A DNA stretch of 64,000 nucleotides, from the NCBI RefSeq assembly GCF_003352045.1, contig NZ_CP025815.1, forward strand, positions 2,666,001-2,730,000. Reading direction: 5' to 3'. A program made the translations under genes and the position numbers. Of the stretch, positions 40,509-51,288 are shown piece by piece. How positions within the stretch are numbered: the stretch's first letter is position 1; every line of letters starts with the position of its first letter. Under the pieces are notes generated by a model. That model was given only the letters and a program-made list of their open reading frames with translations. It was not told where the DNA came from and searched no databases. This DNA comes from Sulfitobacter sp. JL08 (GTDB taxonomy: Bacteria > Pseudomonadota > Alphaproteobacteria > Rhodobacterales > Rhodobacteraceae).

Positions 40509-40706
40509 TCAATCTCCTTGGTCGGCAGAATTGGTTTGCATATAGGCCCATGCCCCTATGGCTTTTTGCACATTCATCAGCGCCGCAGGCGTCAACCCAT
40601 CCTGCGAAGCCGATTTCTCAAAGACATCGAACTGCACCAGCAGGAATTCCGCCAGCGCACTCAATTCTTCTGCGTCCGCCGATTTGATATGGTCCGCAAG
40701 CTGCAT
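40509..40706 (-). CDS. Small protein of unknown function between nuoH and nuoI
   Basis: A 65-residue acidic, helical protein with no membrane segment or signal peptide ([18 protein letters not shown] at the N terminus). I do not recognise a family. The start ATG at 40706 lies 2 bases after the nuoH stop, with AGGA in the nuoH end as ribosome site. A longer start (40751) lies inside nuoH and is rejected. Position suggests a cytoplasmic accessory or assembly factor of complex I. Confidence 0.7.
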
Positions 40707-40708
40707 TC

Positions 40709-41749
40709 CTAGCCCCCGACCGCATAACGCGCAAACACGCCGCCAAACCATTCGAATTTCGCGGCAAACGCCACAAACACAACCCAGAACAGCGAGAACG
40801 GCAGGAACACTTTCCAGCCCAGGCGCATCAACTGGTCATAGCGGTAGCGTGGCGTGATCGCCTTGACCATCGAGAAGAAGAAGAACACGACGCCCATTTT
40901 CAGGATCATCCAGAAAATGCCGTCCTGCAGTCCCGGGATCGGCGACAGCCAACCGCCAAGGAACAGCAGCGACACCAGCGCGCACATCAGAACCACGGCC
41001 ACCAGTTCACCGATCATGAACAACAGGAACGGCGTGGACGAATATTCAACCTGATACCCGGCCACCAGTTCGCTTTCCGCCTCGGGCAGGTCGAAAGGCG
41101 GGCGGTTGGTTTCAGCCAGCGCCGAGATGAAGAACAGGATCAGCATCGGGAAATGTGGCAGCCAATACCAGCTGAGAAAGCCGTAACCGCCATCCTGCGC
41201 TGCCACGATATCACCGAAATTCATGCTGCCGGTCGAAATGATCACACCGATGATAATCAGACCGATGCTGACCTCGTATGAAATCATCTGCGCCGCTGAA
41301 CGAAGCGACCCGAGGAACGGATATTTCGAGTTTGACGCCCACCCGCCCATGATCACGCCGTAAACCTCAAGCGAGGACACCGCGAAAACGTAAAGAATGG
41401 CGACATTGATGTCCGACAGGACCCAGCCATCGTTGAACGGGATCACCGCCCACGCGATCAGCGCCATAACCAGTGACACCATCGGGGCCAGCAGGAACAC
41501 GGCCTTGTCGGACCCTGCGGGGAACACGACCTCTTTCACGATGTATTTCAGGAAATCGGCAAAGCTTTGCAGCAGGCCGAACACACCAACCACGTTGGGC
41601 CCGCGCCGCATTTGAACGGCAGCCCAGATCTTGCGGTCGGCATACATCAAGAAGGCCAGTGCCAGAAGCAGCGGAATCACCAGAAGAAAGATTTGCCCAA
41701 CGATCAGCAGTCCAATGCCGGTATAGGTCGTGGTAAAGAAATCAGCCAT
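40709..41749 (-). CDS. nuoH: NADH-quinone oxidoreductase subunit H
   Basis: Membrane subunit that forms the quinone channel with NuoB and NuoD, 346 residues, eight helices. It shows [36 protein letters not shown], and [26 protein letters not shown], the conserved acidic loop of the quinone site. [10 protein letters not shown] is near the C terminus. Upstream is the 135-residue lipoprotein gene, 6 bases away. Confidence 0.97.
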
Positions 41750-41755
41750 ATGTCC

Positions 41756-42162
41756 TCACACCGTGGGTATTCCGTTTTCTGCACAATGGGCCGTCACAAC
41801 TTCGGCGTCGAGTGTCCGGCTTCCGTCGGGCAGTGATGGCGAGATTGTGTAAACAGCATCTGCGACCCACACGCCACCCTCCTCTTGCACATTTGTGCGC
41901 AAATGACGCGCAAATCCGTATCCCCGGATCAGCGTATACTGCGCGGCAGCGCATTCCGCGTATTCTGCCACATCTTCGGCAGTGCGTGCCCCTGTCATGG
42001 CAACCTGAAAATTAACCAGATCATCCTGCAACAATTGCGTCGTCACGCCCTGATAGTCGGGGGCGAACACTGCGGTTTCATCCACCACGCGTTGCGGCTC
42101 GCAACCGGATACCGCGCCTGCGATCAGCATCAGCAAAGGGCATATGATCCACCCGTTCCGCA

Positions 42163-42163
<1 letters not shown>
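41756..42163 (-). CDS. Small lipoprotein of unknown function between nuoG and nuoH
   Basis: A 135-residue lipoprotein: signal peptide and lipobox AVSGC (lipid Cys C21). The mature protein contains DLVNFQV followed by a helix with EYAECAAAQYT and a second Cys near the C terminus (VTAHCAENG). The same plan is seen in the 108-residue lipoprotein at 44883-45209. The ATG shares one base with the nuoG stop (TAATG), so the gene is translationally coupled. No known family is recognised. Confidence 0.72.
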
Positions 42164-44178
<2,015 letters not shown>

Positions 44179-44332: not shown

Positions 44333-44734
44333 TCACCTGGATCGCAACAGCACGCCGATGGGGCTGCCTTTCTCGATTTCGGCAAGGCCTAGCGGGCATA
44401 GCGTTTCGGGTTTGGCCGGATCGGCACCGTTGGAGCGTGCATAGGCTTCACCCCGCGCGCGCATCCGTTCTTTTTCCGCATCCGACTTTCGGTATTCCCT
44501 GATTTCCTCATAGGTGTAGCCCAGAGATTCCGCATGCGAATTCAGCGACATCAGAAAATTGTAAGCCTTGAGCAAACGCGGCTTGATGTCAGGGCATGTT
44601 TCCTGAATTTCATTGGCCAGAACCAAGGCCAGAATACCGTCATCCACCACCGCAACATCGCGCAAGGGCGGCTTGGCCGCCGCAACGCCGGTTGCCAGAA
44701 CACCTGCCGCTAAAACACCCAGTATCATACGCAT
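44333..44734 (-). CDS. DUF5333 family secreted protein (paralogue 1)
   Basis: A 133-residue protein with a cleavable signal peptide (about 1-19, cut near AAAKP). The mature part has VDDGILALVLANEIQETCPDIKPRL and ends LCPLGLAEIEKGSPIGVLL. The family is restricted, to my knowledge, to Rhodobacterales nuo operons. Two conserved Cys probably form a periplasmic disulphide. It resembles the proteins at 45717-46142 and 46139-46537. A good ribosome site (AAGGAG) precedes the ATG at 44734. Confidence 0.82.
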   Translation of the reverse strand: MRMILGVLAAGVLATGVAAAKPPLRDVAVVDDGILALVLANEIQETCPDIKPRLLKAYNFLMSLNSHAESLGYTYEEIREYRKSDAEKERMRARGEAYARSNGADPAKPETLCPLGLAEIEKGSPIGVLLRSR

Positions 44735-44882
44735 AACATCTCTCCTTTTGCGTGAACGCCGGCGCGCACTGCGCCGCCTGTCCAACCGCAAATGGGGATT
44801 GCCCCGCGTGATATGCAATAACACGCGCCAAACCGCGCCTTTTGGGCGGATCGTTGCGCGTGGTTATGCCGGGGCGGCAGCA

Positions 44883-45209
44883 TCATCCGTCACATTCCCC
44901 GCGCAGATACAGCGAATTCTTTTCAATTGGCAGTGTCGCATCTTCGGCATCGGGCCCGACGGCCCAGATGATATCGGACGTGCCGTAATTCTTGATGCAA
45001 TATTTGGTGGCCTCGTACCGTCCCGCCTCTTTCGCGCCGGTCAGGGATTGCGATACCGGCGACACCGACACCTGAAACTGTGACAGATCGCCATCGACCT
45101 TTTTGGCTTTGGAATTGTAGAACTGTCCATCGAACGCCACCCGTTCCGAGCGTTTTTCGCATCCCGCGATCAGGGCCGCAGCCAGTACCAGTAATAATCC
45201 TGCACGCAT
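44883..45209 (-). CDS. Small lipoprotein of unknown function
   Basis: A 108-residue lipoprotein with lipobox ALIAGC (C17). The mature part has DLSQFQVSVSP, then YEATKYCIKNYG, and a Cys at the last turn (RGECDG). It shares the DL-x2-FQV block and the two-Cys plan with the lipoprotein at 41756-42163. ATG 45209 is 4 bases after the DUF3291 gene. No family recognised. Confidence 0.72.
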   Translation of the reverse strand: MRAGLLLVLAAALIAGCEKRSERVAFDGQFYNSKAKKVDGDLSQFQVSVSPVSQSLTGAKEAGRYEATKYCIKNYGTSDIIWAVGPDAEDATLPIEKNSLYLRGECDG

Positions 45210-45213
45210 TCGA

Positions 45214-45717
45214 CTACTCCGCCGCAACAGGGCTGCACCCGTGGGTGCGCCATGCCGTGGCCTGTTCCAGATAGGACCATCCGAACGCCGCATCGCTATC
45301 GCCATGCGTGCGCAAATGATCCAGTTTTTCCAAGGCTTCTTCCAGCGTCGGGCAGTGCCCGGCGGGCACCCACCACATCACGAAATGCATCTTTCCCAGC
45401 ACCTCGAACCATTCGGCGCGCCGTTCGTAGAACTGCTTGTGCACCGTACCCCAGACAAATGTTTCAAGGTTTTCAACGCTTTCCCAAACCGTCAGATTGC
45501 TGACATATTGCGGATCGTTACCAATGGCATGTTCGGTGTTGCCCGTACCCGGTACGCCCGAACCTTCCATCATCCAGACAAAACCGGGCATCCGTTTGCC
45601 CAAGCCGTTGATGCGGTCAAGGTTGGCCATGAATTCTGCCACACGCGGATCATCAACCGGCGCCAGCAGACGGCCCACATTCAGTTCGGCCAGATGATAT
45701 GTCTGTTCAGTCGCCAT
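45214..45717 (-). CDS. DUF3291 domain protein
   Basis: A 167-residue cytoplasmic protein of the dimeric alpha-beta barrel superfamily (DUF3291). Blocks: YHLAELNVGRLLAPVDDPRVAEF, GFVWMMEGSG, NLTVWESVENLETFVWGTVHKQFYERRAEWFE and VMWWVPAGH. Family members look like small monooxygenase-like or ligand-binding proteins, activity not established. The start ATG shares one base with the upstream gene's stop (TGATG). It is the only clearly non-secreted protein in the F-G insert. Confidence 0.83.
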   Translation of the reverse strand: MATEQTYHLAELNVGRLLAPVDDPRVAEFMANLDRINGLGKRMPGFVWMMEGSGVPGTGNTEHAIGNDPQYVSNLTVWESVENLETFVWGTVHKQFYERRAEWFEVLGKMHFVMWWVPAGHCPTLEEALEKLDHLRTHGDSDAAFGWSYLEQATAWRTHGCSPVAAE

Positions 45718-46142
45718 CAGTTTACCGGCACCAGAAGCGATGCAAGCGCGGTATTTGCGGCGCTTTCCTGATCTGCGGCTTCGCACAGATTATCCTGCCC
45801 GACCGTCACATCATGTCTTGCCTGAAACTCGCGCCGGATCACATCGGTCATTACTTCCAGCCCACCGCTTTGCGACAGGGCCGCGACAGATCCGCGCCCT
45901 TCGGCGTTGCGCTTTTCGTTCACCTGAAAATCCTGCGCCTGATCATAGCTGTAGCGCGGGCAGGCCTGCGCCACCTGTCGGGCCAGTCGTGTGGTCCCGA
46001 CATAATCGGGCACCGGCAGCATATACAGTTTTTGCACGGCCGGATCTGAAAAGGCCCGCGCCGGTTTGGGTGATGCATCACATCCCGCAAGCCCCGCGCA
46101 CAAAGCCACGGCCCCGATCAGCCGAACGGTCATCGCTGTCAT
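45717..46142 (-). CDS. Two-Cys lipoprotein, DUF5333-like (paralogue 2)
   Basis: A 141-residue lipoprotein with lipobox GLAGC (C21). LARQVAQACPRY and the ending LCEAADQESAANTALASLL align without gaps to the corresponding parts of DUF5333 at 44333-44734. The start overlaps the next gene upstream by 4 bases (ATGA). The stop overlaps DUF3291 (TGATG). A second ATG 9 bases in is also possible. Confidence 0.72.
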   Translation of the reverse strand: MTAMTVRLIGAVALCAGLAGCDASPKPARAFSDPAVQKLYMLPVPDYVGTTRLARQVAQACPRYSYDQAQDFQVNEKRNAEGRGSVAALSQSGGLEVMTDVIRREFQARHDVTVGQDNLCEAADQESAANTALASLLVPVN

Positions 46143-46537
46143 TGCGCTACCTCCATAAGATAGGTGCCGATCTGGCTGCCTTCGGCCATTTCAACGCGTG
46201 CAGCGGAACAAACATCCCTTTGCGCTGCACCTTCCTGCAAATTGTGCTTGTCCAGAAACGCCACCTGCATCGCGGCGATCTGCGCGGAAGGGTCTGTCAT
46301 GCCCAACGTATCGGTCGCGGTATCAAACCCGTCCGCTTTCAGCCGGTCCATGACCGCACCGGAATCAGCACTGACCACGGGCAGGTTGATGCTGATATCG
46401 GCACAGGCCAGCGCCAGTTGTTTGGCCGTTGTCGTCGCCATGACGGCGTCGATAAAATAATCGGGGGCCGGACGGTCAGCCGCCTGCACCTGCACGGCCG
46501 AGCCAAGCGTGACACATATGATCGCCGTGCGGATCAC
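46139..46537 (-). CDS. Two-Cys secreted protein, DUF5333-like (paralogue 3)
   Basis: A 132-residue protein with a signal peptide ([18 protein letters not shown]) and no lipobox. [12 protein letters not shown] and the closing [19 protein letters not shown] repeat the DUF5333 pattern. The start is a GTG at 46537, which overlaps the nuoF stop by 4 bases (GTGA); the longer frame to 46786 is inside nuoF. It is the first of five inserted genes between nuoF and nuoG. Confidence 0.75.
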
Positions 46538-47829
46538 TCTGCCGCCACCGCAGACACGCGTCCGGTGCGTTTGTGTTTGATACGGTCTTCGATTTCGTCG
46601 CGGAAATGCCGGATCAGGCCCTGAATGGGCCACGCCGCCGCATCCCCCAGCGCACAGATCGTGTGGCCTTCGACCTGCTTGGTCACGTCCAGCAGCATAT
46701 CGATCTCTTCGGGTTCCGCATCGCCTGTCACCAGGCGGTCCATGACCCGCATCATCCAGCCGGTGCCTTCGCGGCACGGCGTGCACTGGCCACAGCTTTC
46801 ATGCTTGTAAAACTTGCTAAGCCGCCAGATCGCCTTGATCACATCGGTATCCTGATCCATCACGATCACCGCCGCGGTCCCCAGACCCGAGCGTTGCTCG
46901 CGCAGCCAGTCGAAATCCATGATGGCGTCTTTCATCACGTCACGCGGCAGCAGCGGCACGGACGATCCACCCGGAATAACCGCCTTGAGGTTTTTCCAAC
47001 CGCCACGAATGCCGCCGCAGTGGCGGTCGATCAGTTCTTCAAACCCGATCGACATCGCCTCTTCGACGACACAGGGGTTTTTCACATGGCCGGAAATGGC
47101 AAAAAGCTTGGTACCCGCATTGTTGGGCCGCCCGAACGACGAAAACCAATCGGCACCGCGGCGCAGGATCGTGGGCACCACTGCAATGCTTTCCACATTG
47201 TTCACGGTGGTCGGACAGCCATAAAGCCCCGCGCCCGCCGGGAACGGCGGTTTCATCCGTGGCATGCCTTTTTTGCCCTCAAGGCTTTCCAGCAGCGCGG
47301 TTTCTTCGCCGCAGATATAGGCCCCTGCCCCGTGATGCAGGTAGATATCGAAATCAAAACCTGATTTGCAGGCGTTCTTGCCCACCAGTCCGGCATCATA
47401 GGCTTCGTCAATCGCGGCCTGAAGCGCCTCTTTCTCGCGGATGTATTCGCCGCGGATGTAGATGTAGCACGCATGCGCCTGCATCGCGAAAGACGCGATC
47501 AGACAGCCTTCGATCAGGGTGTGCGGATCATGGCGCATGATCTCGCGGTCCTTGCAGGTTCCGGGTTCGGATTCATCCGCATTCACCACCAGATAACTGG
47601 GGCGACCATCGCTTTCCTTAGGCATGAACGACCATTTCAGACCGGTGGGAAACCCCGCACCGCCACGCCCGCGCAGGCCGCTGTCTTTCATCGTCTGGAT
47701 AATCCACTCGCGCCCCTGTTTGATCAGGTTCGCCGTGCCATCCCAATGGCCCCGTGCCTGCGCGCCTTTCAGCGTGCGGTCATGCATCCCGTAAAGGTTG
47801 GTAAAGATGCGGTCCTGGTCTTTTAACAT
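46534..47829 (-). CDS. nuoF: NADH-quinone oxidoreductase subunit F
   Basis: NADH-binding, FMN- and [4Fe-4S]-containing subunit, 431 residues. The FMN/NADH loop [16 protein letters not shown] is near residues 53-68; [16 protein letters not shown] follows. The N3 cluster ligands are [10 protein letters not shown] and the Cys in [13 protein letters not shown]. It is conserved with E. coli NuoF. DUF5337 ends 5 bases upstream. Confidence 0.97.
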
Positions 47830-47834
47830 GTGGA

Positions 47835-48071
47835 CTACCCTTGGTTGTCACGGCGCGCGCGGCGCATTTGGTAAATATTGAACATCGCCCAGACAAAGGC
47901 GGCGAGCGATCCGAAATAGAACAGCATCTCGTAGCGGATGGGCAAACCCAATGCCTGCACCAGCCATGGCGCGAGCAGTGCGGCAATGCCACCCGCAGCT
48001 ATCACCAACGCAACAATTCGCCCGCGCCGAGCGATTGCTGCATCCGTGGCCATGTCTTGATCGGACCTCAC
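47835..48071 (-). CDS. DUF5337 family small membrane protein
   Basis: A 78-residue membrane protein with two helices ([21 protein letters not shown] and [19 protein letters not shown]) and a basic C-terminal tail (RRARRDN). The family occurs in nuo operons of Rhodobacterales; function is unknown. The GTG at 48071 has an AGGAG site 9 bases upstream, so it is preferred over the in-frame ATG at 48053. It lies between the helix-hairpin-helix gene and nuoF. Confidence 0.78.
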
Positions 48072-48086
48072 GCTGTATTGCTCCTA

Positions 48087-48797
48087 TCAGGTCTTCTTGC
48101 TGCGTTTGGAAAACTCGGTCTCGCCGCCTTTGGCCAGAAGCTTGGCCTGTTTGATCCAGTCGTCGCGTTCGATCCGGCCCTTGAACTTCAGCTTGTCATC
48201 GACCCAGTCGATTTCCTTTTTGCGCCAGCTCGCGATCTGATCGAAATGGTACACACCCAGCGCATTCAGCGTCTGTTCCAGCTTGGGCCCAACACCTTTC
48301 AGCAGTTTCAGATCATCGGCAACGCCACCGCGCGCCGCTGTCAGCATTTCGGGCTTGCCATCTGCCGCGACCGGTTTGCGCGCAGGGGCCTTGGCCGTGG
48401 CCGGTTTGACCGCACTTGCCTTGGGGGCTGCCTTTTTCGCAGGGGCCTTTTTCGCTGCGAGTTTTTTCGCAGCCGGTTCGGATGTTGGCACGCTTGAGGC
48501 GACGGCAGCCGGCGCGACAGATGCCGCTGCGGGCGTCGGCGTCGGCGCAGGTGTTGGCGCAGGCGCAGGATCTGCCGGTTTGGCTGCGGACGCAGGTGGC
48601 TGCACCTCTTGGTCAGGGCATTGCACCTTGCTCAGGACAAACCCGGCGATCACAGCCACCAGAATACCCGCGACAAGAGCACCGAAGAACCCCCACCCGG
48701 CCAGCAGCCACAACACCAACGCCAGTACAAGTCCGCCGATTGCAGACAGTTTCCACCATTTTTGCACACATTCAGATTTCTGATCGAGCTGGTTCAT
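48087..48797 (-). CDS. Membrane protein with C-terminal helix-hairpin-helix domain, paired with NuoE
   Basis: A 236-residue protein: two N-terminal membrane helices (about 17-34 and 38-56), an Ala/Pro/Lys-rich linker (about 65-150), and a C-terminal domain (about 160-236) containing [22 protein letters not shown] and the ending ETEFSKRSKK. The domain resembles helix-hairpin-helix (5'-nuclease-like, COG3743) modules. The same domain ends NuoE, encoded just upstream. No catalytic residues of a nuclease are evident. Function unknown. Confidence 0.78.
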   Translation of the reverse strand: MNQLDQKSECVQKWWKLSAIGGLVLALVLWLLAGWGFFGALVAGILVAVIAGFVLSKVQCPDQEVQPPASAAKPADPAPAPTPAPTPTPAAASVAPAAVASSVPTSEPAAKKLAAKKAPAKKAAPKASAVKPATAKAPARKPVAADGKPEMLTAARGGVADDLKLLKGVGPKLEQTLNALGVYHFDQIASWRKKEIDWVDDKLKFKGRIERDDWIKQAKLLAKGGETEFSKRSKKT

Positions 48798-48827: not shown

Positions 48828-49967
48828 TCAGTCATAGACGCCGTCTTTTTTGGCACGTTTCGAGAATTCTGTTTCGTCACCCGATGCCAGTTTGGCAGCT
48901 TGCGCCACCCAACCGTCGCGGCTTACGCGGCCCTTGAACCCCACAAGGTTCTCATCGACCCACGCGATTTCTTCGGCACTCCACTTGGCGATCTGATCGT
49001 AATGGTAAAAGCCCATGGAATGCAGCAGTTTTTCAAGCTTCGGCCCGACACCCTTGATCATTTTCAGATCGTCGGCGCCGGATTTGCGCGGCGCTTTCAT
49101 GACACGGGGTTTCTTGCCGTCCGCGGGTTTGACGGGTGGTTTCGCCTTGGATTTGGCCCGGGCCTGCTGTTTCGCAATCCCGGTTTCATCGGCGGGGGCA
49201 ACGGTACGCGCCTTATCCTTGGGCGTGGATTTGCCCGCCGATTTATCTGCCTTGGCCGGCTTGCCCTGCCACGGCGTGATCAGCGGCACCTCGGTGCCAT
49301 CGATACGTTTGACGGTGTCGCCGATATCCATCGCAAGCTGCGCGCTGGCGTTATACTGGGTCTTGCCGCTGTCATATTCGGTCAGGCTGGTCAGTCCGCC
49401 CAGCGGTTCAGCCGCATAGCGTCCGTTCTGCGGCCCCGGCACCGGCACTTTGCCCGCAGCCAGTTCATCAATGATTTCGCCCATCCGCTTGGCGGTCAGA
49501 TCCTCGTAGTAATCCTTGCCGATCTGCGCCATCGGCGCATTCGAACAGGATCCGAGGCATTCCACCTCTTCCCAGCTGAACTTGCCATCATCGCTGAGCT
49601 GATGCGCCTTGGGCGCAATCTTGTCCTTGCAAACCGCCACCAGATCTTCGGCACCGCAGATCATGCAGGACGTTGTGCCGCACACCTGAATATGGGCAAC
49701 AGACCCAACAGGTTGCAACTGGAACATAAAGTAGAACGACGCCACTTCGAGTCCGCGAATATATGCCAGCCCCAGCATATCGCTGACATGTTCGATGGCC
49801 GGGCGGGTCAGCCAGCCCTCCTGTTCCTGCGCACGCCACAACAGCGGAATGATCGCCGATGCCTGACGGCCTTCGGGATATTTGGTGATCTGCGCCTCGG
49901 CCCATGCCTGATTGGCTGGGGTGAAGGCAAAACTGTCAGGTTGGGTGGGGTGAAGGCGGCGTAGCAT
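48828..49967 (-). CDS. nuoE: NADH-quinone oxidoreductase subunit E with C-terminal helix-hairpin-helix extension
   Basis: Complex I [2Fe-2S] subunit, 379 residues against ~165 in E. coli. The thioredoxin-like domain (1-165) has the N1a ligands in CGTTSC and CLGSC. It is followed by a Lys/Ala/Pro linker (about 165-295) and a helix-hairpin-helix domain (about 300-379) with [22 protein letters not shown] and [10 protein letters not shown]. The ATG at 49967 is the native start; the frame to 50213 is inside nuoD. The gap of 85 bp to nuoD contains intergenic repeat copy 2. Confidence 0.94.
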
Positions 49968-50002
49968 CAGGTCGTCTTTCTGTGCGCTTGGGAAGCGTCG
50001 GA

Positions 50003-50034
50003 GCCTCCGGCGGAAGTATTTTGGAAAAGATGAA
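50003..50034 (+). repeat. Roseobacter-type intergenic repeat, copy 2
   Basis: GCCTCCGGCGGAAGTATTTT is followed by GGAAAAGATGAA. It sits in the nuoD-nuoE gap, antisense to the operon, 36 bases before the nuoE start. It matches copy 1 (932-965) at the stem and at ATATTT/GTATTTT. Confidence 0.6.
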
Positions 50035-50052
50035 TGGCGGTCATGGCATCTC

Positions 50053-51288
50053 TCACCGGTCAATCTCCCCGAACACCACGTCCATGGATCCGATGATGGC
50101 GGCAACGTCGGCCAGCTGGTGGCCGGTCGCCATGTAATCCATCGCCTGCAGGTGCAAAAAGCCCGGCGCGCGCAGTTTGGCGCGGTAGGGTTTGTTTGTG
50201 CCATCGGCCACAAGGTAGACGCCGAATTCGCCCTTGGGTGCCTCGACCGCGCAATAGACTTCGCCCGCGGGGACGTGAAAGCCTTCGGTATAAAGCTTGA
50301 AGTGGTGGATCAGGCTTTCCATCGAGGTTTTCATGTCGCTGCGCGATGGTGGTGTGATCTTGCCCCGCGCCAGAATATCACCCGGTTCATCGCGCAGTTT
50401 GGCGATCGCCTGTTTGATGATGCTGACCGACTGGCGCATTTCTTCCATGCGGACAAGATAGCGGTCATAACAATCGCCGTTCTTGCCTACCGGTACCTGA
50501 AATTCGAACTCGTCGTAGCATTCATAGGGCTGGGCGCGCCGCAGATCCCATGCCATGCCAGAGCCGCGCACCATGACGCCGGAAAAGCCCCAGTCCAGCG
50601 CGTCCTGCCGGGAAATGATCCCGATATCGACATTGCGCTGCTTGAAAATCCGGTTTTCGGTCAGCAATCCGTCGATGTCGTCCATCACGGCCGGAAACTC
50701 GTGCGCCCATGTTTCGATGTCATCCAGCAGCGCATCGGGCAGGTCCTGATGAACACCGCCGGGACGGAAATAGGCCGCGTGCAGGCGCGCACCGCACGCC
50801 CGTTCGTAAAAGATCATCAGCTTTTCACGCTCTTCAAAGCCCCAGAGCGGCGGTGTCAGCGCGCCCACATCCATGGCCTGCGTGGTGACGTTCAGCAGAT
50901 GGTTCAGAACGCGGCCGATTTCGGAATACAGCACCCGGATCAGGCTGGCGCGGCGCGGCACCTCGACCCCTGTCAGTTTTTCGATGGCCAGACACCAGGC
51001 ATGTTCCTGGTTCATCGGCGCGACGTAATCCAGCCGGTCGAAATAGGGCAGGTTTTGCAGGTAGGTGCGGCTTTCCATCAGTTTTTCAGTGCCACGGTGC
51101 AGCAGGCCGATATGGGGATCGCAGCGTTCTACAATCTCGCCGTCCAGTTCAAGCACCAGACGCAGAACACCGTGGGCCGCAGGGTGTTGCGGGCCAAAGT
51201 TGATGTTGAAGTTGCGGATCTTCTGTTCGCCGGTCTGGGCGTCGGTCGATCCGTCGTCATAGGTGTTTACGCGAATATCACCGTCCAT
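50053..51288 (-). CDS. nuoD: NADH-quinone oxidoreductase subunit D
   Basis: 49-kDa subunit that forms the quinone-reducing site with NuoB, 411 residues. It shows [35 protein letters not shown] (as [15 protein letters not shown]) and the C-terminal [21 protein letters not shown] and DVVFGEIDR. The ATG at 51288 has GGAG 9 bases upstream and shares one base with the 57-residue gene (TGATG). Confidence 0.97.

Follow-up and report, generated by a model that had tools for sequence, protein, structure and literature searches.

Complex I of alphaproteobacteria is widely used as a bacterial model of its mitochondrial counterpart. The operon that encodes it holds several genes to which no function has been assigned. 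NDUFS4, NDUFS6, NDUFA12 and PIMT lie on the cytoplasmic arm, and NDUFS5 and NDUFA8, found in mitochondria on the inter-membrane-space face, carry a twin CX9C motif. The 2.3 Å structure of the enzyme from P. denitrificans, to go by the accessible portion of its description, contains PIMT and three supernumerary subunits besides the 14 core ones; NDUFS4, NDUFS6, NDUFA12 and PIMT are resolved in it, NDUFS5 and NDUFA8 are named as absent, and the list holds no DUF5333 protein (PMC11522691). Mass spectrometry of the purified enzyme, according to the accessible part of that study, found several further proteins, whose names are given in its supplement (PMC8115037).

Pfam recognizes DUF5333 as a family (PF17267), to which it assigns no function. 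A literature search on the family name found no paper, and searches on Paracoccus URFs, the Rhodobacter nuo operon, periplasmic assembly factors and nuoG-proximal locus tags turned up nothing on the genes considered here. In R. sphaeroides, a gene presumably lies before nuoG. That gene is unnamed in the main text, so far as it is accessible, of the Tn-seq study that reports the 14 nuo subunits of this organism as essential on LB (PMC5513736), and the words "hypothetical", "unknown function" and "accessory" are absent from the accessible text of the study that describes its two complex I operons (PMC4859585).

Three proteins encoded in the complex I operon of Sulfitobacter sp. JL08, called A, B and C in what follows, belong to this setting. 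What was already known of them is the family name DUF5333. What is new is the existence of extra copies, a putatively lipid-anchored branch and a pair of lipoproteins, Lip and P5, around nuoG; the search by family name found no published description of the extra copies, many of which carry a lipobox-like pattern. A and C resemble DUF5333 as Pfam defines it, exceeding the cut-off of the family, and share its pair of cysteines, its leader and its linkage to nuo genes, while B differs in falling below the cut-off. The likeness to NDUFS5 and NDUFA8 is by analogy only: small, cysteine-dependent proteins supposed to work at the same face of the enzyme. The two CX9C motifs of CHCH proteins are absent from A, B and C, which have instead a single pair of cysteines 59-66 residues apart and correspond to no known subunit. 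NDUFS4, NDUFS6, NDUFA12 and PIMT offer a parallel as additions to the complex I of an alphaproteobacterium, but they are resolved subunits, whereas the DUF5333 proteins carry export leaders and are missing from the same list, as far as it is accessible (PMC11522691).

Layout of the nuoF-nuoG gap

The window, a stretch of 64,000 nucleotides, is part of a 4.32-Mb genome in a single contig, and its complex I operon lies on the minus strand. In the order of transcription, the gap between nuoF and nuoG contains C, B, a gene for a DUF3291 protein, Lip and A, and P5 comes after nuoG (Table 1). The stop codon of nuoF and the start codon of C overlap by 4 bases (GTGA), as do the stop of C and the start of B (ATGA). 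The overlap between B and the DUF3291 gene is one base, and, judging from the coordinates, the start codon of P5 overlaps the stop of nuoG by one base as well. The 4-base overlaps with which C and B follow nuoF make it probable that both proteins are produced along with complex I.

Table 1. Genes in and around the nuoF-nuoG gap of the window
Feature	Coordinates	Strand	Remarks
A, canonical DUF5333 protein	44333..44734	-	signal peptide (by eye), Cys47 and Cys113; adjoins nuoG
B, diverged DUF5333 paralogue	45717..46142	-	lipobox LAGC (by eye), Cys61 and Cys120
C, second DUF5333 paralogue	46139..46537	-	GTG start, signal peptide (by eye), Cys45 and Cys110
Lip, lipoprotein with two further conserved Cys	44883..45209	-	between the DUF3291 gene and A
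P5, second lipoprotein, Lip paralogue	41756..42163	-	blastp to Lip, E 1e-5
DUF3291 protein	45214..45717	-	PF11695, E 1.1e-49; no leader seen by eye; variable gap cargo
nuoF	46534..47829	-	best solved relative P. denitrificans complex I subunit F (8qby_F), E 1.7e-251
nuoG (taken to be so from sequence and place)	42163..44178	-	as query, matched 31/32 DUF5333-less genomes, E <= 1e-30

The original prediction was that A, B and C, each with a signal peptide or lipobox, share a helix that ends A-x2-[ILV]-x3-C and a C-terminal block C-x5-E-x3-[GN][ST]-x-[IL]-[AG]-x2-L, with 60-66 residues between the two cysteines. As an observation this is confirmed: the three frames are where they were said to be, on the minus strand, the leaders are of the kinds claimed (Table 1), and both motifs occur in all three proteins exactly as written. 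The spacing holds for A (66) and C (65) and not for B, which at 59 is just outside the range. Among the 559 stop-to-stop frames of at least 60 residues in the window, only A, B and C have both motifs at that spacing, and the same three are the only ones to have even the C-terminal block. A chance match can be rejected, given that it never reappeared when each protein was shuffled 300,000 times with its composition preserved and that no other frame of the window has it. These figures are nonetheless optimistic, because the motifs were read off A, B and C themselves, and for that reason the weight is put here on independent tests of homology.

The operon has other peculiarities, all of them on the minus strand. 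A gene of the carboxymuconolactone decarboxylase family (PF02627; 39615-40016) sits amid the distal nuo genes. Of two small operon genes, at 40509-40751 and 47835-48071, one is without a Pfam or NCBIfam match and one encodes a DUF5337 protein. At 48087-48797 and 48828-50213, a separate protein duplicates the C-terminal part of the adjoining NuoE-like frame (53% identity over 135 residues, E 5e-35) and has hydrophobic stretches near its start, as judged by eye; a similar tail is met in the NCBIfam models for NuoE, L21 and phasin, in each case below the model's own cut-off.

Kinship of the three proteins

Against the curated PF17267 cut-off of 27 bits, A scores 123.9 bits (E 4.3e-36) and C scores 39.3 bits (E 8e-10), so the claim that A is the only one in a recognized family has to be given up. 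B reaches 12.6 bits (E 0.16), for which reason it is named here a distant homologue and not a Pfam member. No NCBIfam model exceeds its cut-off with A, B or C. By blastp, B matches C (E 2e-5), A has no match to C, and the match of A to B (E 0.097) takes in residues 1-72 of A, leader included. Comparison of profile with profile, the check suggested at the outset, succeeds for A and C (E 1.2e-8) and for B and C (E 0.0011) but gives no significant match of A to a B profile built from three sequences (E 0.14). When A is compared in the same way with a pool of 13 extra copies, among them B and C of the window, the E value is 9.7e-14. Iterative searches over the frames of the gaps, begun from A, B and C, gathered 123, 126 and 123 members from all 101 loci, and each of them converged on one family that contains all three window proteins; the search from A recruited C (E 2e-22) as well as B (E 5e-10). 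Taken together, the Pfam scores, blastp, profile comparisons and iterative searches bear out the paralogy. They support the view that A, B and C are distant copies of the single family DUF5333, strongly for A and C, which are secure paralogues, and moderately for B, a distant relative joined mainly through C.

The two cysteines, whose absence from orthologues would have told against the idea, are invariant in all 126 aligned copies of the family, A, B and C included. Further counts come from the best 80 of 130 confirmed loci with names (Roseobacter, Sulfitobacter, Ruegeria, Leisingera, Salipiger and others). In these, 90 of 91 copies have exactly two cysteines in the domain, and a crude test detects a hydrophobic leader in each of the 91 (the leaders of A, B and C were judged by eye only). 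A loose lipobox pattern is found in 8/12 of the extra copies in the same loci versus 6/79 of the main ones. Extra copies thus lean towards a lipid anchor, of which B is an apparent case. An export leader and a pair of cysteines are therefore kept across the family. From these it would follow that A, B and C reside in the periplasm, each probably held by one disulphide.

The AlphaFold2 model of A is confident and consists mostly of helices (mean pLDDT 89.7, pTM 0.77); that of B, made from an input alignment that contained other family members, has a mean pLDDT of 84.2 and a pTM of 0.73. The models, compared by the order of elements and their offsets from the cysteines without superposition, have in common a helix ending at the first cysteine, a strand at Cys+3 to +5, three helices, a helix around the second cysteine and a strand at 17 to 19 residues past it; that of B has two additional short helices. 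The topologies of A and B are thus predicted to match. With either model, Foldseek found nothing in the PDB at E <= 0.001 and VIA-align gave nothing usable, a result that is no sign of a new fold and is compatible with a known one. A search of PDB sequences with DUF5333 found no relative.

Distribution and linkage to nuo genes

The window comes from the family Rhodobacteraceae, of which 198 genomes were sampled, each from a different genus. DUF5333 is matched at E <= 0.01 in 144 of them, in 143 above the cut-off. A sample of 289 genomes from the class yielded five matches: four are from the same family and above the cut-off, and outside the family there is none above it, only one match below it (E 0.0095). 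Loci were fetched from 100 of the 144 matching genomes, mostly from the top of the list and all chosen as DUF5333-positive. Both nuoF and nuoG lie beside DUF5333 in 97 of these loci and one of the two in the other 3; in two of the exceptions nuoF is on another contig and DUF5333 is with nuoG. The placement inside the complex I operon, as originally predicted, is upheld, and with nuoF or nuoG adjoining in 100/100 fetched loci it is no accident of the window genome. In the named loci (best 80 of 130), the family was found by profile in the gap frames of 79/80, and both nuoF and nuoG were present in 75/80.

Three copies in a gap are unusual. One copy is found in 78 of 101 gaps, two in 21 and three in 2, so that extra copies are present in 23. 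Single-sequence searches found relatives of B in 2/100 family genomes and relatives of C in 7/100, those of the window included. A profile of B has matches in 5/196 genomes, namely the window's, three others at nuo, and one, G187, weakly and elsewhere. The weak match (G187:C1:603430-603858, L232; E 2.8e-5) lies far from the DUF5333 gene and nuoF of its genome. A tree built on 114 columns, many of its forks unresolved, contains a group of 38 rows that includes A (support 98) and a C-type clade of 8 rows (SH-aLRT 95); two genomes retain only a C-type copy. The B of the window stands apart from the three copies found by the B profile, a place made unsure by its long branch. DUF5333 is a fast-evolving family, A being 39-54% identical to other A copies (43 rows). 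The ratio dN/dS is about 0.28 for the C of the window and its nearest relative, 0.41-0.51 for pairs of B-type copies, and about 0.5 and 0.7, near saturation, for the B of the window and two B-type copies. These ratios point to purifying selection. A, then, is the common copy beside nuoG, and the paralogue C is retained by a smaller number of genera, a minority. The sequence of B is best explained by a fast-diverging version of the family, apparently anchored by lipid.

Lip and P5, on the two sides of nuoG, exceed no Pfam or NCBIfam cut-off. Their blastp match (Table 1) is joined by an hhalign comparison of separated sets (E 5.7e-6); alignment of P5 with a Lip set that already contained P5 rows was discarded as circular. 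The P5 profile scores the Lip of the window at 14 bits. An iterative search from Lip recruited 65 P5 rows, and one from P5 did not recruit Lip. Three cysteine columns of Lip are kept in 74/74. The Lip family occurs in 65/101 loci, the window included, and in 75/80 of the named loci (best 80 of 130). P5 occurs in 74/81 sequences (the window plus the named loci, best 80 of 130), and has matches in 140/196 genomes of the family and in 3 of 240 from the class, all three of the same family. At 60-69% identity to the window copy (14 rows), it is better conserved than A. Neither P5 (best E 0.11) nor Lip (best E 0.19) has a credible relative among PDB sequences, and P5 has no match in a Paracoccus-like genome.

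Both lipoproteins tend to go with DUF5333. Lip is present in 65/101 gaps that contain DUF5333 versus 2/20 that do not (Fisher p 8e-6, ignoring kinship). Of 196 genomes, 112 have both P5 and DUF5333, 31 DUF5333 only, 28 P5 only and 25 neither (p 7e-4, again ignoring kinship). The module proposed originally is supported and turns out to be larger than stated, for two paralogous lipoproteins flank nuoG.

Some loci depart from the usual pattern. The nuoF-nuoG gap of two genomes (L060 and L075) holds a protein that by eye is methyltransferase-like. In another (L139, genome G049), a gap frame ending 488 bases after nuoF resembles, again by eye, a diverged C-terminal block of DUF5333. A record titled Nocardioides marinus (L202) has a DUF5333 locus of the Rhodobacteraceae type and is perhaps mislabelled or contaminated.

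Possible roles at complex I

I propose, tentatively, that the exported, mostly helical DUF5333 paralogues act together with Lip and P5 in an accessory role at the periplasmic face of complex I. They would do so as transient factors of assembly or protection rather than as stoichiometric subunits. Contact with the enzyme, the mode of action and co-expression with it are what the proposal supposes; a role in assembly or protection is plausible.

A different view, which I consider quite possible and place second, is that DUF5333 is a true envelope family whose function is unconnected with complex I and which is carried along in a well-expressed operon because the gap tolerates it. The length of the gap ranges from 427 to 3771 bp among the 98 sequences that include both of its ends, and its cargo changes. 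DUF3291 is there in 38/101 loci, along with other unrelated genes, and cargo that looks as cytosolic as this means that place alone is no proof of function. Moreover, 54/198 genomes of the family have no DUF5333 match at E <= 0.01. Gaps read in 20 DUF5333-less genomes contain no member of the family (Lip is in 2, DUF3291 in 8), and three of them are only 8-9 bp long. What is hard to square with a passenger is its fidelity: one would expect it now and then at another site, but not one of the 100 fetched loci, all from different genera, is without both nuoF and nuoG.

It is decidedly unlikely that the proteins are stable subunits bound at the periphery of the periplasmic face and either removed by detergent or missing from Paracoccus preparations. 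The linkage to nuo and the stop-start overlaps would suit such subunits, a lipobox like that in B and many extra copies would keep them at the membrane, and the further proteins detected in the purified enzyme, named in the supplement to a study accessible in part (PMC8115037), leave room for them. Many genera, however, do without DUF5333, and the family is missing from the subunit list of the P. denitrificans structure, as far as that is accessible (PMC11522691), although a Paracoccus-like genome with a NuoF 93% identical to the P. denitrificans chain encodes A. The structure speaks against a stable subunit and not against a transient factor, and it is on the strength of the structure and this genome that the transient factor is my first choice.

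That B is no member at all, alike only in two short motifs and leaving A and C as the sole paralogues, is most improbable: its sub-threshold Pfam score, the non-significant comparison of A with the B-only profile and its long branch apart from the B-profile copies speak for this, and against it stand the blastp and profile matches to C, recruitment by the search from A, the same predicted order of elements with the same strand offsets from both cysteines, and its position adjoining C with a 4-base overlap.

The preferred reading, a transient accessory role, can be extended to a dedicated periplasmic module of the Rhodobacteraceae. Disulphide-stapled DUF5333 proteins, some soluble and some lipid-anchored, would with Lip and P5 build or protect the membrane arm on its outer face, an independently evolved counterpart of the accessory subunits in the mitochondrial inter-membrane space, tuned in each lineage by duplication and lipidation. 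In this full form the idea is unlikely. A part in membrane-arm assembly, suggested in the original prediction, is weakened by the P. denitrificans structure and by the 54 genomes with no match, since nuoG is present in 31 of the 32 of these that were tested. That interpretation as a whole is therefore supported in part, in its paralogy, its placement in the operon and its module.

If the helper set in the periplasm is real, then the assembly or protection of the outer face of a bacterial complex I would become testable by the removal of single genes. Even if the proteins are passengers, a gap in which one envelope family persists across 144 of 198 sampled genera, amid the duplication and exchange of its neighbours, would make a useful case for the study of evolution.
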